NCBI RefSeq assembly: GCF_003788635.1
Contig: NZ_AYKH01000013.1
Coordinates: 1-64,000, forward strand
Source of the DNA: Salinisphaera orenii subsp. orenii MK-B5
GTDB lineage: Bacteria; Pseudomonadota; Gammaproteobacteria; Nevskiales; Salinisphaeraceae
Direction: 5' to 3'
DNA: 64,000 bases
Made by a program: the position numbers and the translations under genes. A model generated the notes under the pieces. It saw only the letters and a list, made by a program, of their open reading frames with translations, searched no databases and was not told where the DNA came from. Positions 3,555 to 17,260 of the stretch are shown here, piece after piece; position 1 is the first letter of the stretch; each line of letters starts with the position of its first letter.

Positions 3555-4244
3555 ATGGCAGCCGAAACACAGGCGCAGCGCATGACGGTCCTGATCGCCG
3601 ACGATCATCCGTTGTTCCGGACCGCGCTCAGCAACGCCGTGAACCAGTGTCTGGACGCGCCCGACCTGCAGACCGTCGGCTCGTTCGACGAGCTTCGCGC
3701 CGCCCTCGAGGCGCATGCCACCGCGGATCTGCTGCTGCTGGACCTGAACATGCCGGGGGCTCGGGGGTATTCGGCCCTGGTGCACGCCCGCAGCGTGGCG
3801 CCGGCGCTGCCGGTGATCGTGGTCTCCGCCTACGAGGAGGCGAGCGTGGCGCGGGCGTCGCTGGACCACGGCGCGGCGGGCTTCATTCCCAAGTCGGCCT
3901 CGCCGGAGACGATGACCGAAGCCATCGCCACGGTGCTCGACGGCCGCAGCTGGGCGCCGGACATGCCGGACGCGCCCGAGAACAGCGACGACGCCTTCAC
4001 CGACAAGCTGGCACTGCTGACGCCGCAGCAGCAGCGGGTACTGATCATGCTCACCGATGGGCTGCTCAACAAGCAGATCGCGATCGACCTCGATATCTCC
4101 GAGGCCACGGTCAAGGCCCACATCACCGCGATTCTGCGCAAGCTCGGCGTGCATACGCGCACCCAGGCGGTCATCGCCGCGCGCAGTCTCGAGATCGACT
4201 GGGCCAGCTACGGCCGCGGTTCGCAGGGCGCTGCCGGCGACTGA
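3555..4244 (+). CDS. crbR: LuxR-type two-component response regulator, CrbR/ErdR-like
   Basis: The 229-residue protein has an N-terminal receiver domain (about 10-125) followed by a LuxR/NarL helix-turn-helix (about 152-212, NKQIAIDLDISEATVKAHIT). The acidic pair is in IADDHPLFR, the phospho-acceptor is Asp63 in LLLLDLNMPG, and the switch Lys is Lys113 in FIPKS. Regulators of this type pair with kinases carrying a sodium/solute-symporter domain (CrbS-CrbR in Vibrio, MxtR-ErdR in Pseudomonas) and control acetyl-CoA synthetase and acetate use. Such a kinase gene is the next gene, converging from the other strand, which supports the pairing. The regulon here is inferred, and no acs gene is in the window. 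Confidence 0.82.
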   Translation: MAAETQAQRMTVLIADDHPLFRTALSNAVNQCLDAPDLQTVGSFDELRAALEAHATADLLLLDLNMPGARGYSALVHARSVAPALPVIVVSAYEEASVARASLDHGAAGFIPKSASPETMTEAIATVLDGRSWAPDMPDAPENSDDAFTDKLALLTPQQQRVLIMLTDGLLNKQIAIDLDISEATVKAHITAILRKLGVHTRTQAVIAARSLEIDWASYGRGSQGAAGD

Positions 4245-8000: not shown

Positions 8001-8611
8001 ATGGATTCGAAGGCGATGGCGTGGATCAGCCCCTGATGGGACTCCCGCGGATTGACGTGGCGGGTGCCGAACACGATCGAGAACGCGGCCATGAGGATCG
8101 CCACGTACAGCCCGGTGTCCACCCAGGGCGCATCCGGGGCCTCGACCACGGTGGACACGCGCGCGCCCTGGGTGAGCGTGTTGAACGACATCGTCAGCGC
8201 CTTGAGCTGCAGCGCGATGTAGGGCAGCACGACCAGCAGGGCGATGGCCGAGATGAGCGCGGCCAGACCCTGCGACTTGCCGTAGCGCGCGGCGATGAAA
8301 TCGGCGATCGAGGTCGTGTTCTGCTGGCGCGAGATCAGCAGCATCTTGCGCAGGATCGGCGAGAACACGAGCAGGGCGGCCATCGGCCCCAGATAGATGG
8401 GCAGATACGTCCAGCCCTCGGTCGCCGCGCTGCCGACGTTGCCGAAGAACGTCCACGAGGTGCAGTAGACGGCCAGTGACAGCGCATACACGACCGGCCG
8501 CGGGCCCGGCCGCTTCTGCAGCCGCCCGCGTCGATCCGCGGCATAGGCGATGGCGAACAGGATGCTGATGTAGATCAGCGAAAGCGCGATCAGGACCCAG
8601 GCGCTGACGAT
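5042..8611 (-). CDS. crbS: Hybrid sensor histidine kinase with sodium/solute-symporter domain, CrbS/MxtR-like
   Basis: The protein is about 1189 residues if begun at 8611. Order: a multi-helix SLC5-type symporter domain (about 1-500), a PAS domain (about 650-770, ENIDQGISVIDQDLRLVAWN), a coiled coil, HisKA with phospho-acceptor His836 in AASHDLLQPLN, a HATPase domain with GLGLGLSLA, and a C-terminal receiver with Asp1117 in AAILDYDLG. This is the CrbS/MxtR layout; in Vibrio and Pseudomonas such kinases sense acetate-linked status and act through LuxR-type CrbR/ErdR. The start is odd. The first standard start codon is GTG at 8491, but the frame upstream to 8611 still encodes the family's first membrane helix and RRGRLQKRPGPRP linker. 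No ATG, GTG or TTG exists there; a Shine-Dalgarno precedes an ATC at 8611. Domains are secure, the start is not. Confidence 0.85.
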   Translation of the reverse strand: MVSAWVLIALSLIYISILFAIAYAADRRGRLQKRPGPRPVVYALSLAVYCTSWTFFGNVGSAATEGWTYLPIYLGPMAALLVFSPILRKMLLISRQQNTTSIADFIAARYGKSQGLAALISAIALLVVLPYIALQLKALTMSFNTLTQGARVSTVVEAPDAPWVDTGLYVAILMAAFSIVFGTRHVNPRESHQGLIHAIAFESIVKLVAFLAVGLFVVYGMFNGLDDLFRQAGAVPAFSNLFEQPLIDARFVTTSILAVAAIFCLPRQFHVGVVENTDTRDLVTARWLFPLYLFLMSLFVVPLAAAGLVLFSPGEVNPDRFVLALPLEAGAESIALLGYVGGVSAGTSMVIMATVTLATMLCNEVVVPLAMRIPRLGFIGNPDLSRSLLRIRRILIAVILVLAWCCYRLFGTTEALASIGLLSFAGVVLFLPPLIGGLYLRRIGRKGVFAGLVAGLAVWLYTLVLPNLASVGWFDSAWMATGPLGISWLTPQALFGYDFGDTLTHGVFWILAADIAVMAAVSLNTPTTLIERAQAIAFVDLGIPRANPRPVDDRQPAIRVAELEVLLQRFLGPQAARAALDEYAGRHDRDLLSNQLVDASLLQFAERRLAGVVGSASARLMLASGLRQRDLAIDDMVRLLDRTADAVQFNRSVLQAALENIDQGISVIDQDLRLVAWNSRYLELFEYPPGLVRTGRPVADLIRFNAMRGECGPGPVEEHVRKRLAHMREGRPHRFERHRHNGTVLQMTGNPMPGGGFVTTFNDITAFKKTEAALTRANEELEARVAERTAALSRANEGLRRENDQRAAAQRAAVDARREAERANQSKTRFLAAASHDLLQPLNAARLFAASAVEDGGTDRAQALTHIQASLESAQALLEPLLDISKFDAGAWETNETDFPLARILEPLTLEFDALARQAGLALRSVPSGCWVHSDPTLLRRILQNFLSNAVRYTPEGRVLIGVRREAETVRIEVWDTGPGIANDQLASIFDEFQRGASSTASGERGLGLGLSLADRMARLLGHTIDVRSSVGRGTRFCIHVARATPRDNAGAPTPFEAPAPDAALGARQVLCVDDDQASLDAMTGLLERWRIECITAPAEDAAAVLGDEPMDAAILDYDLGPEAPNGLELAERLRAIRDVPCLLVTANRDRAIAARARELGVTVLYKPLAPAKLRAALSQATRGGADEP

Positions 8612-8618
8612 GGCGATT

Positions 8619-8625
8619 CTCCCCC
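8619..8625 (-). promoter_or_regulatory. Shine-Dalgarno placed before a non-standard ATC start of crbS
   Basis: On the minus strand GGGGGAG ends 7 bases before the ATC codon at 8611-8609. That is ideal spacing for initiation there and has no alternative ATG, GTG or TTG to serve in the crbS frame. It marks the probable true 5' end of the kinase gene. Confidence 0.5.
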
Positions 8626-9785
8626 GCGGCCAATCGGCCGCCTCGCGTGTGAATGGATGCCCGTCGCGATGACGGCCGGTCCGCCCCCATGATGCCGCGC
8701 GAATGCGCGAGTGGCGACGTTATCGGCGATTCCCGGCTGCGACGCAATGATCGGTTGTGCTTTGGTTGCAGCTGTCCTTCGTCGGACATCAAGCCGTCCG
8801 ACGCGGAGGTGATTGCCGCCTTGGGGGTGTTGGGCTGTCGGTGAGTGAAGGACAGGTAGGCGCGCGACAGTTTCGACCGCGTGGGTCGTCGCGGATGCGT
8901 TGGCCTGCCCCACCGCCCAGGGCTCCGGCGGGCCGAGCCGTCCGCCGCGCCAAGCGGGTTCGGGTCGTTGCGGGACCCGCTGCACCCCGGCAGCCCGGCG
9001 GTTGCTTGGAACCGACGCCCTATCACGTGCACGGGTTGAAGATGGCCGGTGCCCAGGGTTCATCGATCCCGCTCGACCGATTACCAACTTAGTCGCTGCC
9101 CTTGGTCATTGTTCAGGTCGTCGGCTCAATTCCGGGCGGGATCGGCCAACCATCGTCACACGTTGTCGTGCCGCACGCCGAGGCGCCATCAGGGCTCGCG
9201 GCGGTGGCGGGCGCCCACGGTAGTCCCGGCCGGTGCGCGCCGGGTTGAGATCGTGCGCGCGGGCGTGGCGTGCGTTCCGGATGACCGCGAGCAGCGGTGC
9301 GCCGGCCGGCCGCGGTGGGGCCAGGGCAATAGGCCAACGACGCTTGGCGCACAAGTGTTGTCCGGCACCACCGAGGAACAGGCCTGACGGCCGCCAGCAA
9401 CCTTGATTCGCCGAAATGCACAGGCGGAGACAGCGCCGGCGGCCCGCACCGCACGGTCGATGGCTACTACCTACATCTAATATACCTTTTTCCAATACTT
9501 CGGCTCCCCGGTGTGTTGCAGGGTGTATTGACGGTCAGAAGCGCCTCCGCACGTTCGAGGCGTATATCCGGCCACGAAAGAGGGGGGATGCGAGATGCAC
9601 TGGTCGGTTTGTTGCCGGCAACGCATGCGACATCGGGCCGTCCGAAGCCCGGGTCGCTGGCGCCGCGTACCGGCCCGTCCGCCGGCGTTGGCATCGAGTG
9701 CACTCGACGACTTGCTCTCTCTTTCCTTGGTTCGATGCGTTCGCGTGTTCGAACCGATTTGCCATGCACGAGGAGGAGAAGCGTT
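8626..9785. other. Long gene-less divergent spacer between crbS and the ABC transporter operon
   Basis: About 1.16 kb lies between the kinase start and the binding-protein gene. Open frames on both strands lack recognisable domains and consist mostly of Arg/Pro/Ala-rich shadow sequence. The composition shifts to AT-richer bases near 9470-9500 (CTAATATACC), and a pyrimidine-rich run lies at about 9712-9730, so promoters for the operon probably lie in the last 300 bases. No gene, tRNA or repeat was found. Confidence 0.5.
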
Positions 9786-11168
9786 ATGTCCAATAAAAAC
9801 GACGATTCGAGAATGAGCAGTGGCCACGAGACCGACGCCGCCCTGAGCCGGCGGTCGTTCATGAAAAGCAGCGCGGGTGTGGTCGGGGGGCTGATGGTCC
9901 CGTCGATCTTCAGCCTCGCGTACGCGGCCGACGGGGATCATCCCGCCGTGGGCAATTATCCGGCCGGAGTACAGGGCGATACCGTGTTCGTCGGTATCTC
10001 CGTGCCGTTGACCGGACCGTACTCGACCGAGGGTGCCGACGAGCAGCGGGGCTATGAACTGGCCATCGCGCAGCTCAACGCGGGGGATTCGCGGATCAAG
10101 AAGATCTCGCCGAATACCAAGCAGGGTGTGCTCGGCAAGAAGGTCGTCCACGAGGTCGCCGACAACGAAACCGATCCGAACACGGCCGTTCAGGCCAACA
10201 CACGCTGGATCCGCGACAAGAAGGCGATGATGATCACCGGCTCCGTGAGCAGTGCGGTGGCCATTGCCTGCGAAAAACTCGCCCAGCGCGAGAAGACGCC
10301 GTATCTGGCCTGCATCAGCGGCTCCAACGATACGACCGGCAAGGATTGCCAGCGCTACGGTTTCCGCAGCTGCCCCTTCGCCTATAATTCGGCCAAGGCA
10401 CAGGCGCCGATCCTGGCGGACGCCCTGGGCAAGGATCGCAAGGCCGTGTATCTCGTGCCCGACTACACTTACGGGCATACGGTTTACGACTCCATGACCG
10501 AGTTCACCGAGGCCCTGGGTTGGAAGACCGTCGGCAAGCAGCTGGCGCCGCTCGGTACCTCCGATTTCAGCTCCTACCTGCTGAATATCGCGAACAGCGA
10601 TGCCGACGTCATGGTCAACATCGCCTTCGGCGCGGACGCCGCCAACTCGACCAAGCAGGCCAAGCAGTTCGGCATCCTCGACAAGATGGCCTATGTGGTG
10701 CCCTACATGTCGCCGTTCCTGGCCGACGAAGTGGGCGCCGACATCATGCAGGACGTCTACGGCGTGCAGGACTTCTGGTGGACGATGGCCGACGACAATC
10801 AGATCGCAAAGGACTTTGTCGACGCCTTCGAGGAGAAATACGGGGACAAGCCGCGCTGGTCGGCCGCTGCCGCCTACATGCAGACCGCCCTCTGGGCCGA
10901 TGCGGTCGAACGGGCCGGCACCTGGTACCCGCCGGCCGTCGTCAAGGCCTACGAGGACGAGAGCGTGACGCGCGACACGATCTACGGCGAGGCCCACTGG
11001 CGTGCCTGCGATCACCAGCTCGTACGCCCGATCCCCGTGGTCAAGGGCAAGAAGCCGGCGGACATGCGCAATAAGGACGACTTCTTCGAGGTCGTGGGCA
11101 TGTCGGGGGCCGAGGAGGTCATGCCGGCCTGTGATCACTTCGGCTGCGAGCTGGGCCCGTATACCTGA
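9786..11168 (+). CDS. Tat-exported ABC transporter substrate-binding protein, UrtA/LivK type
   Basis: The 460-residue protein has a twin-arginine signal (SRRSFMKSSAGVVGGLM, ending near AYAA), so it should be exported folded. The mature part is a type I periplasmic binding protein of the Peripla_BP_6 family. It begins with VFVGISVPLTGPYSTEGADEQRGYELA and has a hinge-linked second lobe containing AVYLVPDYTYGHTVYDS. This family binds branched-chain amino acids, urea, short amides or aromatic acids; the ligand is not evident here. The ATG at 9786 follows a strong AGGAGGAG. It heads a four-gene transporter operon, with a 190-base gap before the first permease, a common arrangement for a highly expressed binding protein. 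Confidence 0.88.
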   Translation: MSNKNDDSRMSSGHETDAALSRRSFMKSSAGVVGGLMVPSIFSLAYAADGDHPAVGNYPAGVQGDTVFVGISVPLTGPYSTEGADEQRGYELAIAQLNAGDSRIKKISPNTKQGVLGKKVVHEVADNETDPNTAVQANTRWIRDKKAMMITGSVSSAVAIACEKLAQREKTPYLACISGSNDTTGKDCQRYGFRSCPFAYNSAKAQAPILADALGKDRKAVYLVPDYTYGHTVYDSMTEFTEALGWKTVGKQLAPLGTSDFSSYLLNIANSDADVMVNIAFGADAANSTKQAKQFGILDKMAYVVPYMSPFLADEVGADIMQDVYGVQDFWWTMADDNQIAKDFVDAFEEKYGDKPRWSAAAAYMQTALWADAVERAGTWYPPAVVKAYEDESVTRDTIYGEAHWRACDHQLVRPIPVVKGKKPADMRNKDDFFEVVGMSGAEEVMPACDHFGCELGPYT

Positions 11169-11358
11169 GGGACGGGCTGTCACCGGGTCGGCCGACGCGC
11201 GGGGTGCGGCGGCCGGCCGCCTGACATCGGTGTACGTGTCGCGCTGACCCGTATCCGCGGGCACACAGTGCGCCGGCATGGTCATGGCCGGTTCACTGGC
11301 GGGCCTGGGACGGTGCCGTACACGTCGCCGATGCATTGAACCGCAGGGGAGCTTGTTC

Positions 11359-12234
11359 ATGCCCAGTCCATCGCTATTCTTCGCGCAACTGTTCAATGGC
11401 CTCGCGCTCGGCTCGCTGCTGGCGCTGGTCAGTGCCGGGCTAACCATCATTCTGGGCACGCTCGGCGTGCTGAACTTCGCCCACGGCGCGATGTTCATGG
11501 TGGCGGCCTATGTGGCCTGGTGGACGATGGTCGCCACCCAGTCTTACGTGCTTGCCGCGCTAGCGGCCTGTGCCGTGCTCGTGGTGCTCGGCATGATCAT
11601 TGAGCGCGGCATCATCCAGTTCTACTACAGCCGGCCGCCAGAGGATCAGATCCTGGTGACCTTCGGTATTGGTGTCGTGCTCGTCGAGGTCATCCGCGTC
11701 ATCTTCGGCGGCATCTCCCACAGCATGCCGGTACCCGACTGGGGTTCGGGCATCGTCAACATGGGTTTTCTGATCTATCCGAAGTACCGCGTGCTCGCGC
11801 TCGGCATCATCGCGGTGGCGCTGCTCGCGCTCTATCTCGTGCTCTACCGCACCCGGCTGGGACTGATCGTGCGGGCCGGCATCGAGGACCAGCGCATGGT
11901 CGGGCTGCTGGGCATCAACGTGAAGCGCACGTTCCTGGCGGTGTTTGCCCTGGGGTCGCTCGCGGTCGGGTTTGCCGGTGCGGTCTATGCGCCGATCATC
12001 GCGGTCAACCCCGAAATGGGCGAACAACTGCTGGTGCAGTCGTTCGTGGTCGTGGTCATCGGCGGGCTCGGCTCTTTTCCGGGGGCCGTGATCGGCGGCC
12101 TGATCGCAGGTGAGATCCTCACGCTGACGACCATGTTCAATCCGGCCTATTCGCACGTGATGCTCTATCTGGCCATGGCGGTGGTGCTCGTACTGCGACC
12201 GCAGGGTCTGTTCGGCGTGGAGGGTCGGGAATGA
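11359..12234 (+). CDS. ABC transporter permease, LivH/UrtB type
   Basis: This 291-residue integral membrane protein has the LivH-family opening (FNGLALGSLLALVSAGLTII then LGVLNFAHGAMFMVAAYVAW) and the cytoplasmic EAA-like loop region GIEDQRMVGLLGINVKR that contacts the ATPases. About eight hydrophobic segments are visible. I chose ATG 11359, which follows GGGGAG; the open frame upstream is not family-like. The stop overlaps the next gene's ATG by four bases (ATGA), so the two are translationally coupled. It forms the translocation pore with the permease half of the following fusion protein. Confidence 0.9.
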   Translation: MPSPSLFFAQLFNGLALGSLLALVSAGLTIILGTLGVLNFAHGAMFMVAAYVAWWTMVATQSYVLAALAACAVLVVLGMIIERGIIQFYYSRPPEDQILVTFGIGVVLVEVIRVIFGGISHSMPVPDWGSGIVNMGFLIYPKYRVLALGIIAVALLALYLVLYRTRLGLIVRAGIEDQRMVGLLGINVKRTFLAVFALGSLAVGFAGAVYAPIIAVNPEMGEQLLVQSFVVVVIGGLGSFPGAVIGGLIAGEILTLTTMFNPAYSHVMLYLAMAVVLVLRPQGLFGVEGRE

Positions 12235-14126
12235 CGGGAATGACCAGGGATACCGCTGCGCTGCGCTGGCCGTGGCTGCCGGAACTCGTCACTGCGGCCG
12301 CGCTCATTGTTGCCCCGTGGATACTGCCGCACCTCGGCTTCAATGCCGACATCGCTGCCCGAATCCTGATCTGGGGGCTGTTCGGCCTCGGTTTCGATCT
12401 GCTGTTCGGTTTCACCGGCCTGCTCTCCTTCGGTCAGGCGGCTTTCTACGGCACCGGCGGTTTCGTGACCGCCTATCTCTCGACCACCGGGGTCATCGAC
12501 AACGTCATTCTCTGTCTCATCGTCGGCACGCTGGCGGCCATGGTCTACGGCGTGATCATCGGCCTGTTCGCGCTTCGGCGCACCGGGCTGTATTTCGCGA
12601 TGCTGACCCTGGCGTTTGGCGAGATGTCGTTCTTTCTTGAGAATTCGCCGCTGTCGGAATGGACGGGCGGAGAGAACGGTATCGCCGGGGTGCCGGTGCC
12701 GTCGATTCATCTCGGTTTTCTCGAGTACGAGTTCAGCAGCGGCTGGCCGCTCTACGGCTTCATCGCCGCCCTGTTCTGGATCGGCTTCGTGCTCGCGCGT
12801 CGGATCAGTCGCTCGCCGTTCGGAATGATCCTGGTGTCGATCCGAGAGAACACCGGCCGCGCGATGGCGCTGGGCCACGCAGTGCAGCGCTACAAGCTCG
12901 CCGTGTTCACGATCGCGGCCGCCTATGGTGGTCTCGCGGGCGGCCTTCTCGGTGTGCTGCAGAACTACATGCCCCCCGGTGCCTTTGCGCTGCAGACCTC
13001 GGGGCAGCTGGTGATGCAGACGGTGATCGGCGGTGCCGGCACGCTGTTCGGGCCGCTGGTCGGCGCGACCGTGTGGCTCTGGCTGCGTACGGTACTGCAG
13101 TACATCCCCGATATCGGCGCGGCCTGGAAGCTCATACTGGGCATCATCTTCATCCTGCTCGTGACGTTCTTCCGCCGCGGTCTGTGTGGTGAATTGATCC
13201 ACTGGGTTCGTCATCGCCGCGCGGCCACGACCGAGGCGGCCGCGGACGGCCATGCGGTCGAGCGACAGGTCCCGGAAACCGCGCCCGCGCCCGAGCGTGA
13301 GTCGTCCGGCCCGGTCACACTGGAGCGGGGGCGCGTCCCGCAGATCGAGCCCGCCGACGGCACGCCGGCACTCGAAGCGCGGGGTCTGACCAAGCATTAC
13401 GGCGGCGTGCACGCGGTCACCGATGTCAGCCTGTCGATCGGCGTTGGCGAGCTGCGCGGACTGATCGGGCCCAACGGTGCCGGCAAGAGCACGTTGTTCA
13501 AGATGCTCGCCGGCGAGATCACGCCCACGGCCGGCGACGTCTTCCTGCACGGCCAGAACGTATCCGGGGTGGGGCCGACCGGCATCTGTCAGCACGGTCT
13601 CAGCAAGAGCTATCAGATCAATCAGCTGTTCGACAGCCTGACAGTGCGCCAGAACATGCTGATTCCGATTCTCGGCCGGAACCGCGGACCGTTCGCACTC
13701 GACATGCTCCGCAGCCTGGGCGGAGTCGAGCGGCTGGACGAACAGGTGGACAGGACGCTGGACCTGGTTGGGTTGAGTGCCCGGGCCGACGCGCCGACGA
13801 GCGTGCTCGCCTACGGCGAGAAACGGCGGCTGGAGATCGGCCTCGCGCTGGCCACCTCACCGACCGTGCTGCTGCTCGATGAGCCGCTCGCGGGGATGAG
13901 CCCGGCCGAACGCGCCGACACGGTGGCGCTGCTCAAACGGGTCCGGCGCGGACGCACGATGGTGGTCGTCGAGCACGATATGGACGCCGTATTCGAACTC
14001 GCGGAGTACATCAGCGTACTCAACGAGGGCGAACTGCTGGCGGAAGGCACACCCGAGCAGATCCAGAACGACGATCGGGTTCAGAACGCGTATCTCGGAG
14101 GCATGAGCGAAGATGAGTCTGCTTGA
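12231..14126 (+). CDS. Fused ABC permease-ATPase (LivM-LivG type)
   Basis: The 631-residue protein joins two usually separate subunits. Residues 1 to about 320 are a LivM-type permease (FGLGFDLLFGFTGLLSFGQA, then RRTGLYFAMLTLAFGEM). A Pro/Glu/Ala-rich linker spans about 325-375. Residues from about 377 are a LivG-type ATPase with Walker A GPNGAGKST near 413, the family's modified signature AYGEKRRLEIG near 527, Walker B LLLDEP near 548, and the switch His in VVEHDMD. The fusion fixes one permease to one ATPase. Such fusions occur in this transporter family, but separate genes are more usual. The start overlaps the preceding stop by 4 bases, and the stop overlaps the following ATPase gene by 14 bases. 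Confidence 0.9.
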   Translation: MTGMTRDTAALRWPWLPELVTAAALIVAPWILPHLGFNADIAARILIWGLFGLGFDLLFGFTGLLSFGQAAFYGTGGFVTAYLSTTGVIDNVILCLIVGTLAAMVYGVIIGLFALRRTGLYFAMLTLAFGEMSFFLENSPLSEWTGGENGIAGVPVPSIHLGFLEYEFSSGWPLYGFIAALFWIGFVLARRISRSPFGMILVSIRENTGRAMALGHAVQRYKLAVFTIAAAYGGLAGGLLGVLQNYMPPGAFALQTSGQLVMQTVIGGAGTLFGPLVGATVWLWLRTVLQYIPDIGAAWKLILGIIFILLVTFFRRGLCGELIHWVRHRRAATTEAAADGHAVERQVPETAPAPERESSGPVTLERGRVPQIEPADGTPALEARGLTKHYGGVHAVTDVSLSIGVGELRGLIGPNGAGKSTLFKMLAGEITPTAGDVFLHGQNVSGVGPTGICQHGLSKSYQINQLFDSLTVRQNMLIPILGRNRGPFALDMLRSLGGVERLDEQVDRTLDLVGLSARADAPTSVLAYGEKRRLEIGLALATSPTVLLLDEPLAGMSPAERADTVALLKRVRRGRTMVVVEHDMDAVFELAEYISVLNEGELLAEGTPEQIQNDDRVQNAYLGGMSEDESA

Positions 14127-14814
14127 GGTCCAGGGCATCAACAGCCACTACGGGGATTCCCATATCCTGTTCGATGTCGACATGCGAGTTGAGGCCAACG
14201 AGGTGGTAGCACTGCTCGGCCGCAACGGCGCCGGCAAGAGCACGACGCTCAAGTCGCTGATGGGCGTGGTCACGCCGACGCGCGGGCAGGTGCGCTTCGA
14301 TGGTCAGGACGTGGCCGGCAGGCCGCCGTTCGAGATCGCCCGGCGTGGCATGCAGCTCGTGCCCGAGGAGCGGCGCATCATCGGCACTCTCTCGGTTCAC
14401 GAGAATCTGAAGCTGGCGGCCCTGAGTGCCGGGCGCGACGCCTGGAGTTTCGAGCGCGTCTACGAGTTCTTCCCGCGGTTGCAGGAACGTCGACGCAGCC
14501 GCGGCAAGGATCTGTCCGGCGGCGAGCAGCAGATGCTGGCGATCGGACGGGCGCTCATCCGCAACGCCAAGCTGATCCTGCTCGACGAGCCGTTCGAGGG
14601 CCTCGCCCCGATCATCGTCCGGGATCTGATGGCCTCGTGCCAGCAGCTGGCCCGCGAGGGGCAGACGTTCCTGGTGGTCGAACAGAACGTGGCGGCAGCA
14701 CTCCGGCTGGCCGATCGCTGTTATCTCATCGAGAACGGGCACATGGTCTACGAGGGCAGTGCCGAGGCGCTTCGCGATTCGCCCGAGGTCATGGACCGCT
14801 ACCTCGGCGTGTGA
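14113..14814 (+). CDS. ABC transporter ATP-binding protein, LivF/UrtE type
   Basis: This 233-residue ATPase has Walker A GRNGAGKSTT near residue 37, the signature DLSGGEQQMLAIGRAL near 135, Walker B LILLDEPFEGLAP and the H-loop replaced by Gln in VVEQNVAAAL, all as in LivF/UrtE. The conserved stretch RRGMQLVPEERRIIGTLSV is typical of the family. It starts inside the 3' end of the fusion gene, so the two nucleotide-binding domains are made together. It closes the transporter operon; no gene for a catabolic enzyme follows it, so the substrate stays open. Confidence 0.92.
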   Translation: MSLLEVQGINSHYGDSHILFDVDMRVEANEVVALLGRNGAGKSTTLKSLMGVVTPTRGQVRFDGQDVAGRPPFEIARRGMQLVPEERRIIGTLSVHENLKLAALSAGRDAWSFERVYEFFPRLQERRRSRGKDLSGGEQQMLAIGRALIRNAKLILLDEPFEGLAPIIVRDLMASCQQLAREGQTFLVVEQNVAAALRLADRCYLIENGHMVYEGSAEALRDSPEVMDRYLGV

Positions 14815-14918
14815 TGGTCGAATCGGCCGTCGGTCGGTCGGGCGCGATCCGTCGCGCTGTCTCCGGGTACTGTCGTGGCGTGCGCCGGTGCGAAGTGCGC
14901 CCGTGTGCGGCACGCTGA

Positions 14919-17260
<2,342 letters not shown>

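Follow-up and report, generated by a model that had tools for sequence, protein, structure and literature searches.

The 64-kb window (the whole stretch of DNA analysed here) carries a hybrid sensor histidine kinase gene, crbS, and, in the opposite orientation, a gene for a LuxR-type response regulator (Table 1). The crbS frame is open from an in-frame TAA to its stop, and the first ATG, GTG or TTG that it contains is GTG 8491. Upstream of this codon the frame translates as ...PRGRIAIVSAWVLIALSLIYISILFAIAYAADRRGRLQKRPGPRPV-V(8491)YALSLAVY, so that helix 1 and the basic linker of CrbS, including the stretch SAWVLIALSLIYISILF and the linker DRRGR, are encoded between the upstream stop and the GTG. 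A CrbS begun at the GTG would lack the helix VLIALSLIYISILFAIAYAA. On the same strand, the tract GGGGGAG is followed by seven bases (8618-8612) and then by ATC 8611, at a register spacing of 6. A second in-frame ATC (8617-8615) lies one base from the tract and, with a register spacing of 0, is too near to it to be fit as the crbS start. A sequence-only reading of this DNA had claimed that no canonical codon precedes GTG 8491, that the sequence upstream of it encodes the first membrane helix and basic linker and that GGGGGAG ends seven bases before the ATC; frame, translation and coordinates bear out all three. Pairing of GGGGGAG with an assumed 16S tail gave a predicted duplex of about -8.6 kcal/mol. 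A consensus scan of the window found no sigma-70 promoter or terminator near the crbS start.

Table 1 Features of the crbS locus in the window.
Feature	Position	Strand	Basis
LuxR-type response regulator, ErdR/CrbR-like, ordinary ATG start	3555..4244	+	NCBIfam, Pfam
crbS hybrid sensor histidine kinase (membrane domain, PAS, HisKA, HATPase, receiver); a start at ATC 8611 gives 1189 aa	5042..8611	-	Pfam, homology
GTG, first downstream canonical codon of crbS; rejected as true start	8489..8491	-	
Basic linker DRRGRLQKRPGPRP, helix 1 to next membrane segment	8495..8536	-	14 genus members, few substitutions
First hydrophobic helix VLIALSLIYISILFAIAYAA	8537..8596	-	translation; pattern conserved in genus and other genera
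Proposed crbS start codon ATC (AUC)	8609..8611	-	spacing, alignment with other genera, genus conservation
Shine-Dalgarno-like tract GGGGGAG	8619..8625	-	sequence; predicted pairing, purine tract in 14/14 genus members
In-frame upstream stop TAA of crbS	8720..8722	-	sequence

Pfam assigns PAS_7, HisKA, HATPase_c and Response_reg domains to CrbS, the PAS, HisKA, HATPase and receiver combination expected of CrbS/MxtR, and the protein is 44-46% identical over nearly its full length to Pseudomonas-group proteins. Its membrane part gave no symporter match in Pfam at E 0.001. A further ORF in this genome, with an open frame of 488 aa, gives a weak alignment to CrbS residues 5-467. The regulator contains Response_reg and GerE domains (Pfam), and its best NCBIfam match is NF041830 ErdR, whose score of 223 bits falls short of the curated cut-off of 390. 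V. cholerae CrbS is reported to be a hybrid kinase that carries a transporter-like domain of 13 helices and is required for acs expression (PMC5436829). In Vibrio and Pseudomonas, as here, the homologous CrbS/MxtR hybrid kinase has a LuxR-type regulator nearby, and the regulator in the window is likely the partner of CrbS. Homology to CrbS/MxtR and the nearby ErdR/CrbR-like gene suggest that CrbS probably controls acetate use; both the name crbS and the acetate link rest on homology, since the symporter part is unmatched and the regulator scores below the cut-off.

The surroundings of the gene have been rearranged. In S. halophila, serS and crbS lie side by side and are transcribed divergently. 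In the window they are separated by about 6.3 kb (8652-14921) with urea/branched-chain-type ABC transporter genes; positions 14922-16375 match the serS side of the S. halophila locus and 8300-8651 the crbS side. serS is intact at 14988-16283, and a 69-base, 75% copy of its 5' end and divergent promoter region (counterpart 14949-15016) lies beside crbS at 8683-8750. A conserved GCATTATAT-like box is found upstream of crbS in several relatives; in the window it stayed with serS and is altered beside crbS. The original upstream promoter region of crbS has probably been lost in this genome. Despite the upstream rearrangement, the ATC and the helix of crbS are intact.

The crbS start region across Salinisphaera

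All 14 genomes of the salt-loving bacterium Salinisphaera, among them S. halophila, S. shabanensis, S. hydrothermalis and the window genome (G000, 3.67 Mb), contain a crbS orthologue (68-100% identity). Besides these, L066 (NZ_JAGHQU010000002.1), from a record titled Endozoicomonas sp. G2_2, falls inside Salinisphaera by its crbS; the record is probably misnamed.

None of the 14 has a canonical start in codons -10 to +1 around a conserved Trp, and nine have no canonical codon anywhere back to the in-frame stop. Every one has an in-frame ATC shortly after a Shine-Dalgarno-like purine tract with predicted 16S pairing, and the closest relative (protein 97% identical) has the same ATC as the window. 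The proposed start is not a single alignment column. Relative to the Trp, ATC stands at codon -4 in L001 and L006-L013 (with a further ATC at -3 in L010, L012 and L013) and at -3 in L014 and L016-L018; L015 has one at -5 and another at -3. Because ATC shifts among -5, -4 and -3 before a fixed Trp, it is the codon and its spacing that are conserved, not one residue. A base error at the crbS start was rejected, the missing canonical start being common to all 14 genomes.

Ten of the genomes have a GGAG-type core that allowed scoring, and in nine of these the best ATC lies at a register spacing of 5-8; the tenth, L018, has two overlapping cores, with spacings of 3 and 6. L007, L009, L010 and L011 contain no exact four-base match to the core and have a GGGGGA tract only, at a similar distance by eye. 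The full AGGAGG is absent upstream of crbS in all 14. ATC makes up 45% of codons at -5..-3, against 0.6% at -30..-8 and 4.8% in the body of the gene (14 genomes), although codon conservation alone cannot tell a start ATC from an Ile codon, because ATC is the usual Ile codon here. In one genome, G005, an in-frame ATG precedes the Trp by 11 codons, with no visible Shine-Dalgarno sequence ahead of it. Predicted RNA structures over the start were inconsistent between species, with no conserved hairpin.

The pattern of substitution bears on where translation begins. Mean pairwise differences within the genus were 0.24/0.15/0.40 per codon position in codons 0..34; the values were 0.13/0.08/0.37 for codons 35..70 and 0.67/0.67/0.66 for codons -30..-8, a region that aligns poorly. 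Comparison of the window with S. halophila shows just two differences in codons 0..35, both at third positions, and differences at 52 of 90 sites in codons -40..-11. Coding-like substitution in codons 0..34 therefore places the beginning of translation upstream of GTG 8491, near the ATC. It argues against initiation at GTG 8491 or at the corresponding codons of the other genomes, which would yield a protein without the first helix and which we regard as extremely unlikely. GTG 8491 is the first canonical codon of the frame, and a GTG occurs at codon +35 or +36 in ten of the 14 genomes, but the first downstream canonical codon falls, depending on the species, between codons +2 and +43 past the Trp, and other genera retain the helix after a canonical start.

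Canonical starts in related genera

An order-wide search matched crbS in 46 of 85 genomes, 32 of them outside Salinisphaera; two of these (G025 and G084), in which the N-terminus is missing, were excluded from the count, as was a divergent second copy in G062 (L063). Each of the 30 other-genus orthologues with an intact N-terminus (L034, L035, L036-L062 and L255) starts with ATG, GTG or TTG, and the first-helix pattern is kept behind that codon. In 22 of the 28 scored, the canonical start falls exactly in the column of ATC 8611. Unlike in Salinisphaera, Pseudomonas-group crbS loci, read by eye, start with ATG in 74/74 cases. The sequence-only reading had considered an ATC start likely and had suggested comparing the start codons of orthologues, with an ATG in all close relatives, pointing to a sequencing error, as a result that would count against it. 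The comparison gave ATC in all 14 Salinisphaera genomes, a canonical codon at the site in none of them and canonical starts outside the genus; both the conservation of ATC and its alignment with most of those canonical starts support the earlier view.

The same alignment bears on which non-canonical codon is used. Initiation might occur at GTC 8608, or genus-wide at codon -3, which unlike the ATC is a fixed column (of the 14 genomes, 8 have ATC there, 4 GTC and 2 ATA), while codon -4 includes GCT, GTT and GTC. GTC, however, is mismatched at two bases, the four genomes with GTC at -3 have ATC at -4 (at a spacing of 6-7 in the three with a Shine-Dalgarno core found), and most other genera start in the -4 column. 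We consider this choice of codon exceedingly improbable, and ATC the better candidate.

In a tree built from 14 Salinisphaera proteins and 14 from other genera (the latter from the 16 loci L036-L051, with L050 and L051 left out), Salinisphaera grouped with full support. Read on this tree, ATC at -4 and ATC at -3 were each lost in more than one lineage, never both in the same one. Because the genus is monophyletic and its relatives have canonical starts, the data are most simply explained by a single loss of the canonical start on the branch to Salinisphaera, with ATC retained since at -4, -3 or -5.

Candidate unusual starts elsewhere in the genome

We surveyed coding potential by codon usage in 864 kb of the window genome, calling 556 ORFs coding. 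The sequence comprised the window and parts of contigs C1, C40, C12, C23, C5 and C6; the sample was non-random, as it deliberately took in 20 kb around pcnB and another 20 kb around tRNA genes, and part of the surveyed sequence had served to train the codon table. The survey is weak at detecting short N-terminal extensions, and infC was not among the matches listed. Four ORFs had a coding-like stretch of at least 10 nats ahead of the first canonical start: a prfB-like ORF, crbS, pcnB and a GAF-like ORF. The stretch in crbS was the second strongest, after the prfB-like ORF and ahead of pcnB. Widespread use of odd starts was not seen in the 864 kb.

The strongest ORF reads like prfB by its sequence. 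prfB is a textbook programmed-frameshift gene and pcnB a textbook weak-start gene, and since both are among the four, the survey detects the right kind of gene. The prfB-like ORF (G000:C1 156077-157156, within L164) is coding upstream of its first canonical start, as frameshifting predicts. The GAF-like ORF (G000:C23 116136-117125, within L247) is extended at its N-terminus by a coding-like stretch that lacks a canonical start, and is perhaps a broken gene or another odd start.

In another conceivable route into crbS, ribosomes from an overlapping upstream ORF would reinitiate or frameshift into the gene, as in cbrX-cbrA or prfB. The prfB-like ORF of the same genome bears a programmed-frameshift signature, and in some Salinisphaera genomes an ORF in another frame ends close to the crbS site. 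The related sensor gene cbrA of Pseudomonas putida is reported to be translationally coupled to the short upstream ORF cbrX (PMC6591292). Yet no out-of-frame ORF with conserved start and stop positions is common to the 14 genomes, and we judge such a route very unlikely. Coupling would in any case add to the AUC, not replace it, because it still needs a start codon.

The two examples of regulated non-AUG starts cited in the sequence-only reading, infC and pcnB, appear by sequence to belong to the same start class in Salinisphaera. Each could be followed in 13 genomes, because infC was not found in G006 and a strong PolyA_pol match was not found in G007; for pcnB we took the stronger of the two PolyA_pol genes per genome. 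infC (L144-L156) shows ATC-GCT after AAGGAGG in 13/13. In G009 an in-frame ATG lies three codons earlier, overlapping the purine tract, and a few other infC loci have an in-frame TTG upstream of the tract. pcnB (L207-L219) shows ATC or ATT before Asn-Glu/Asp in 13/13, after a weak purine tract; in G001 a further in-frame ATG lies five codons downstream, and several loci have distant upstream in-frame canonical codons. The start in this genus thus appears to be ATC in infC and ATC or ATT in pcnB.

Three tRNA-Met genes were found among the 30 of 43 tRNA matches examined as loci. An altered initiator tRNA was rejected, as all three carry the ordinary anticodon CAT.

Discussion

AUU, AUC and AUA are described as non-canonical triplets that IF3 discriminates against and rejects (PMC4611024). 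In E. coli, only infC and pcnB are described as starting at AUU (PMC9410913). In S. aureus, such starts are reported for infC (AUA), cvfC1 (AUU), ccpN (AUA) and citZ; the AUU and AUA starts are conserved, and reporters reached about 10% of AUG in poor medium, and in rich medium ccpN gave as much as 30% (PMC13009471). The search listings of one open-licence library showed no paper that deals with the start codon of crbS or with AUC initiation in Salinisphaera.

The crbS gene has the features of this class: AUG, GUG and UUG are missing from its conserved N-terminus throughout the genus, and an in-frame AUU, AUC or AUA is conserved at a usable Shine-Dalgarno distance, four of the 14 genomes having only a G-rich tract with predicted pairing. 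Because infC and pcnB appear to share the class in Salinisphaera, crbS looks like a third, lineage-specific member. The likeness to each known case is partial. E. coli infC (AUU) has a non-AUG, IF3-discriminated start like the one proposed for crbS, and the Salinisphaera infC itself appears to use ATC, but infC has a strong AAGGAGG whereas the purine tract of crbS is weaker, and its product is the discriminating factor itself, closing an autoregulatory loop that crbS does not have. E. coli pcnB (AUU) shares with crbS a weak start that would limit the amount of protein; it encodes an RNA-processing enzyme rather than a sensor, and its AUU is known from E. coli, whereas the crbS ATC is seen here in Salinisphaera only. 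ccpN and cvfC1 of S. aureus have conserved non-canonical starts, as crbS would, and ccpN is described as a regulator of carbon metabolism with medium-dependent initiation (PMC13009471). These, however, are Firmicute genes with extended Shine-Dalgarno motifs whose starts were found by profiling and shown experimentally, while crbS encodes a membrane sensor kinase with a weak Shine-Dalgarno sequence and a start proposed from sequence.

We hold it to be highly probable that crbS starts at the IF3-rejected AUC 8611-8609, as one of a class ancestral to the genus that includes infC and pcnB, and that the sensor is most likely scarce. The purine tract 7 nt upstream would position the 30S subunit at the AUC, where the ordinary initiator tRNA (anticodon CAU) would pair with A and U and be mismatched at the third base. 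Because of this mismatch, initiation should be slow and IF3 should actively reject the complex, and CrbS would still begin with fMet. Low translation of crbS is accordingly very likely on this model, and synthesis of CrbS would rise as the ratio of IF3 to ribosomes drops. Such initiation would most likely keep an acetate-type sensor kinase scarce relative to its regulator. The retention of a rare AUC start throughout the genus, as in infC and pcnB, suggests that this scarcity is probably deliberate. Consistent with a sensor that can be scarce, low CbrA is reported to suffice to activate one target (PMC6591292).

Gene callers limited to ATG, GTG and TTG likely lose the first 40 residues of CrbS in the window genome, where GTG 8491 is the likely default call, and similar N-terminal stretches in its Salinisphaera relatives. 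Known chromosomal genes that depend on AUU, AUC or AUA for initiation are few. Since crbS would have joined this class in one genus, it offers a natural before-and-after comparison, with canonical starts in sister genera and AUC here, and makes it testable whether such starts set sensor-to-regulator ratios and whether the level of IF3 reaches carbon metabolism. More speculatively, and in our estimate rather doubtfully, a small IF3-gated set in Salinisphaera (infC, pcnB, crbS and perhaps more) may tie acetate use to the state of translation and hence to growth rate.
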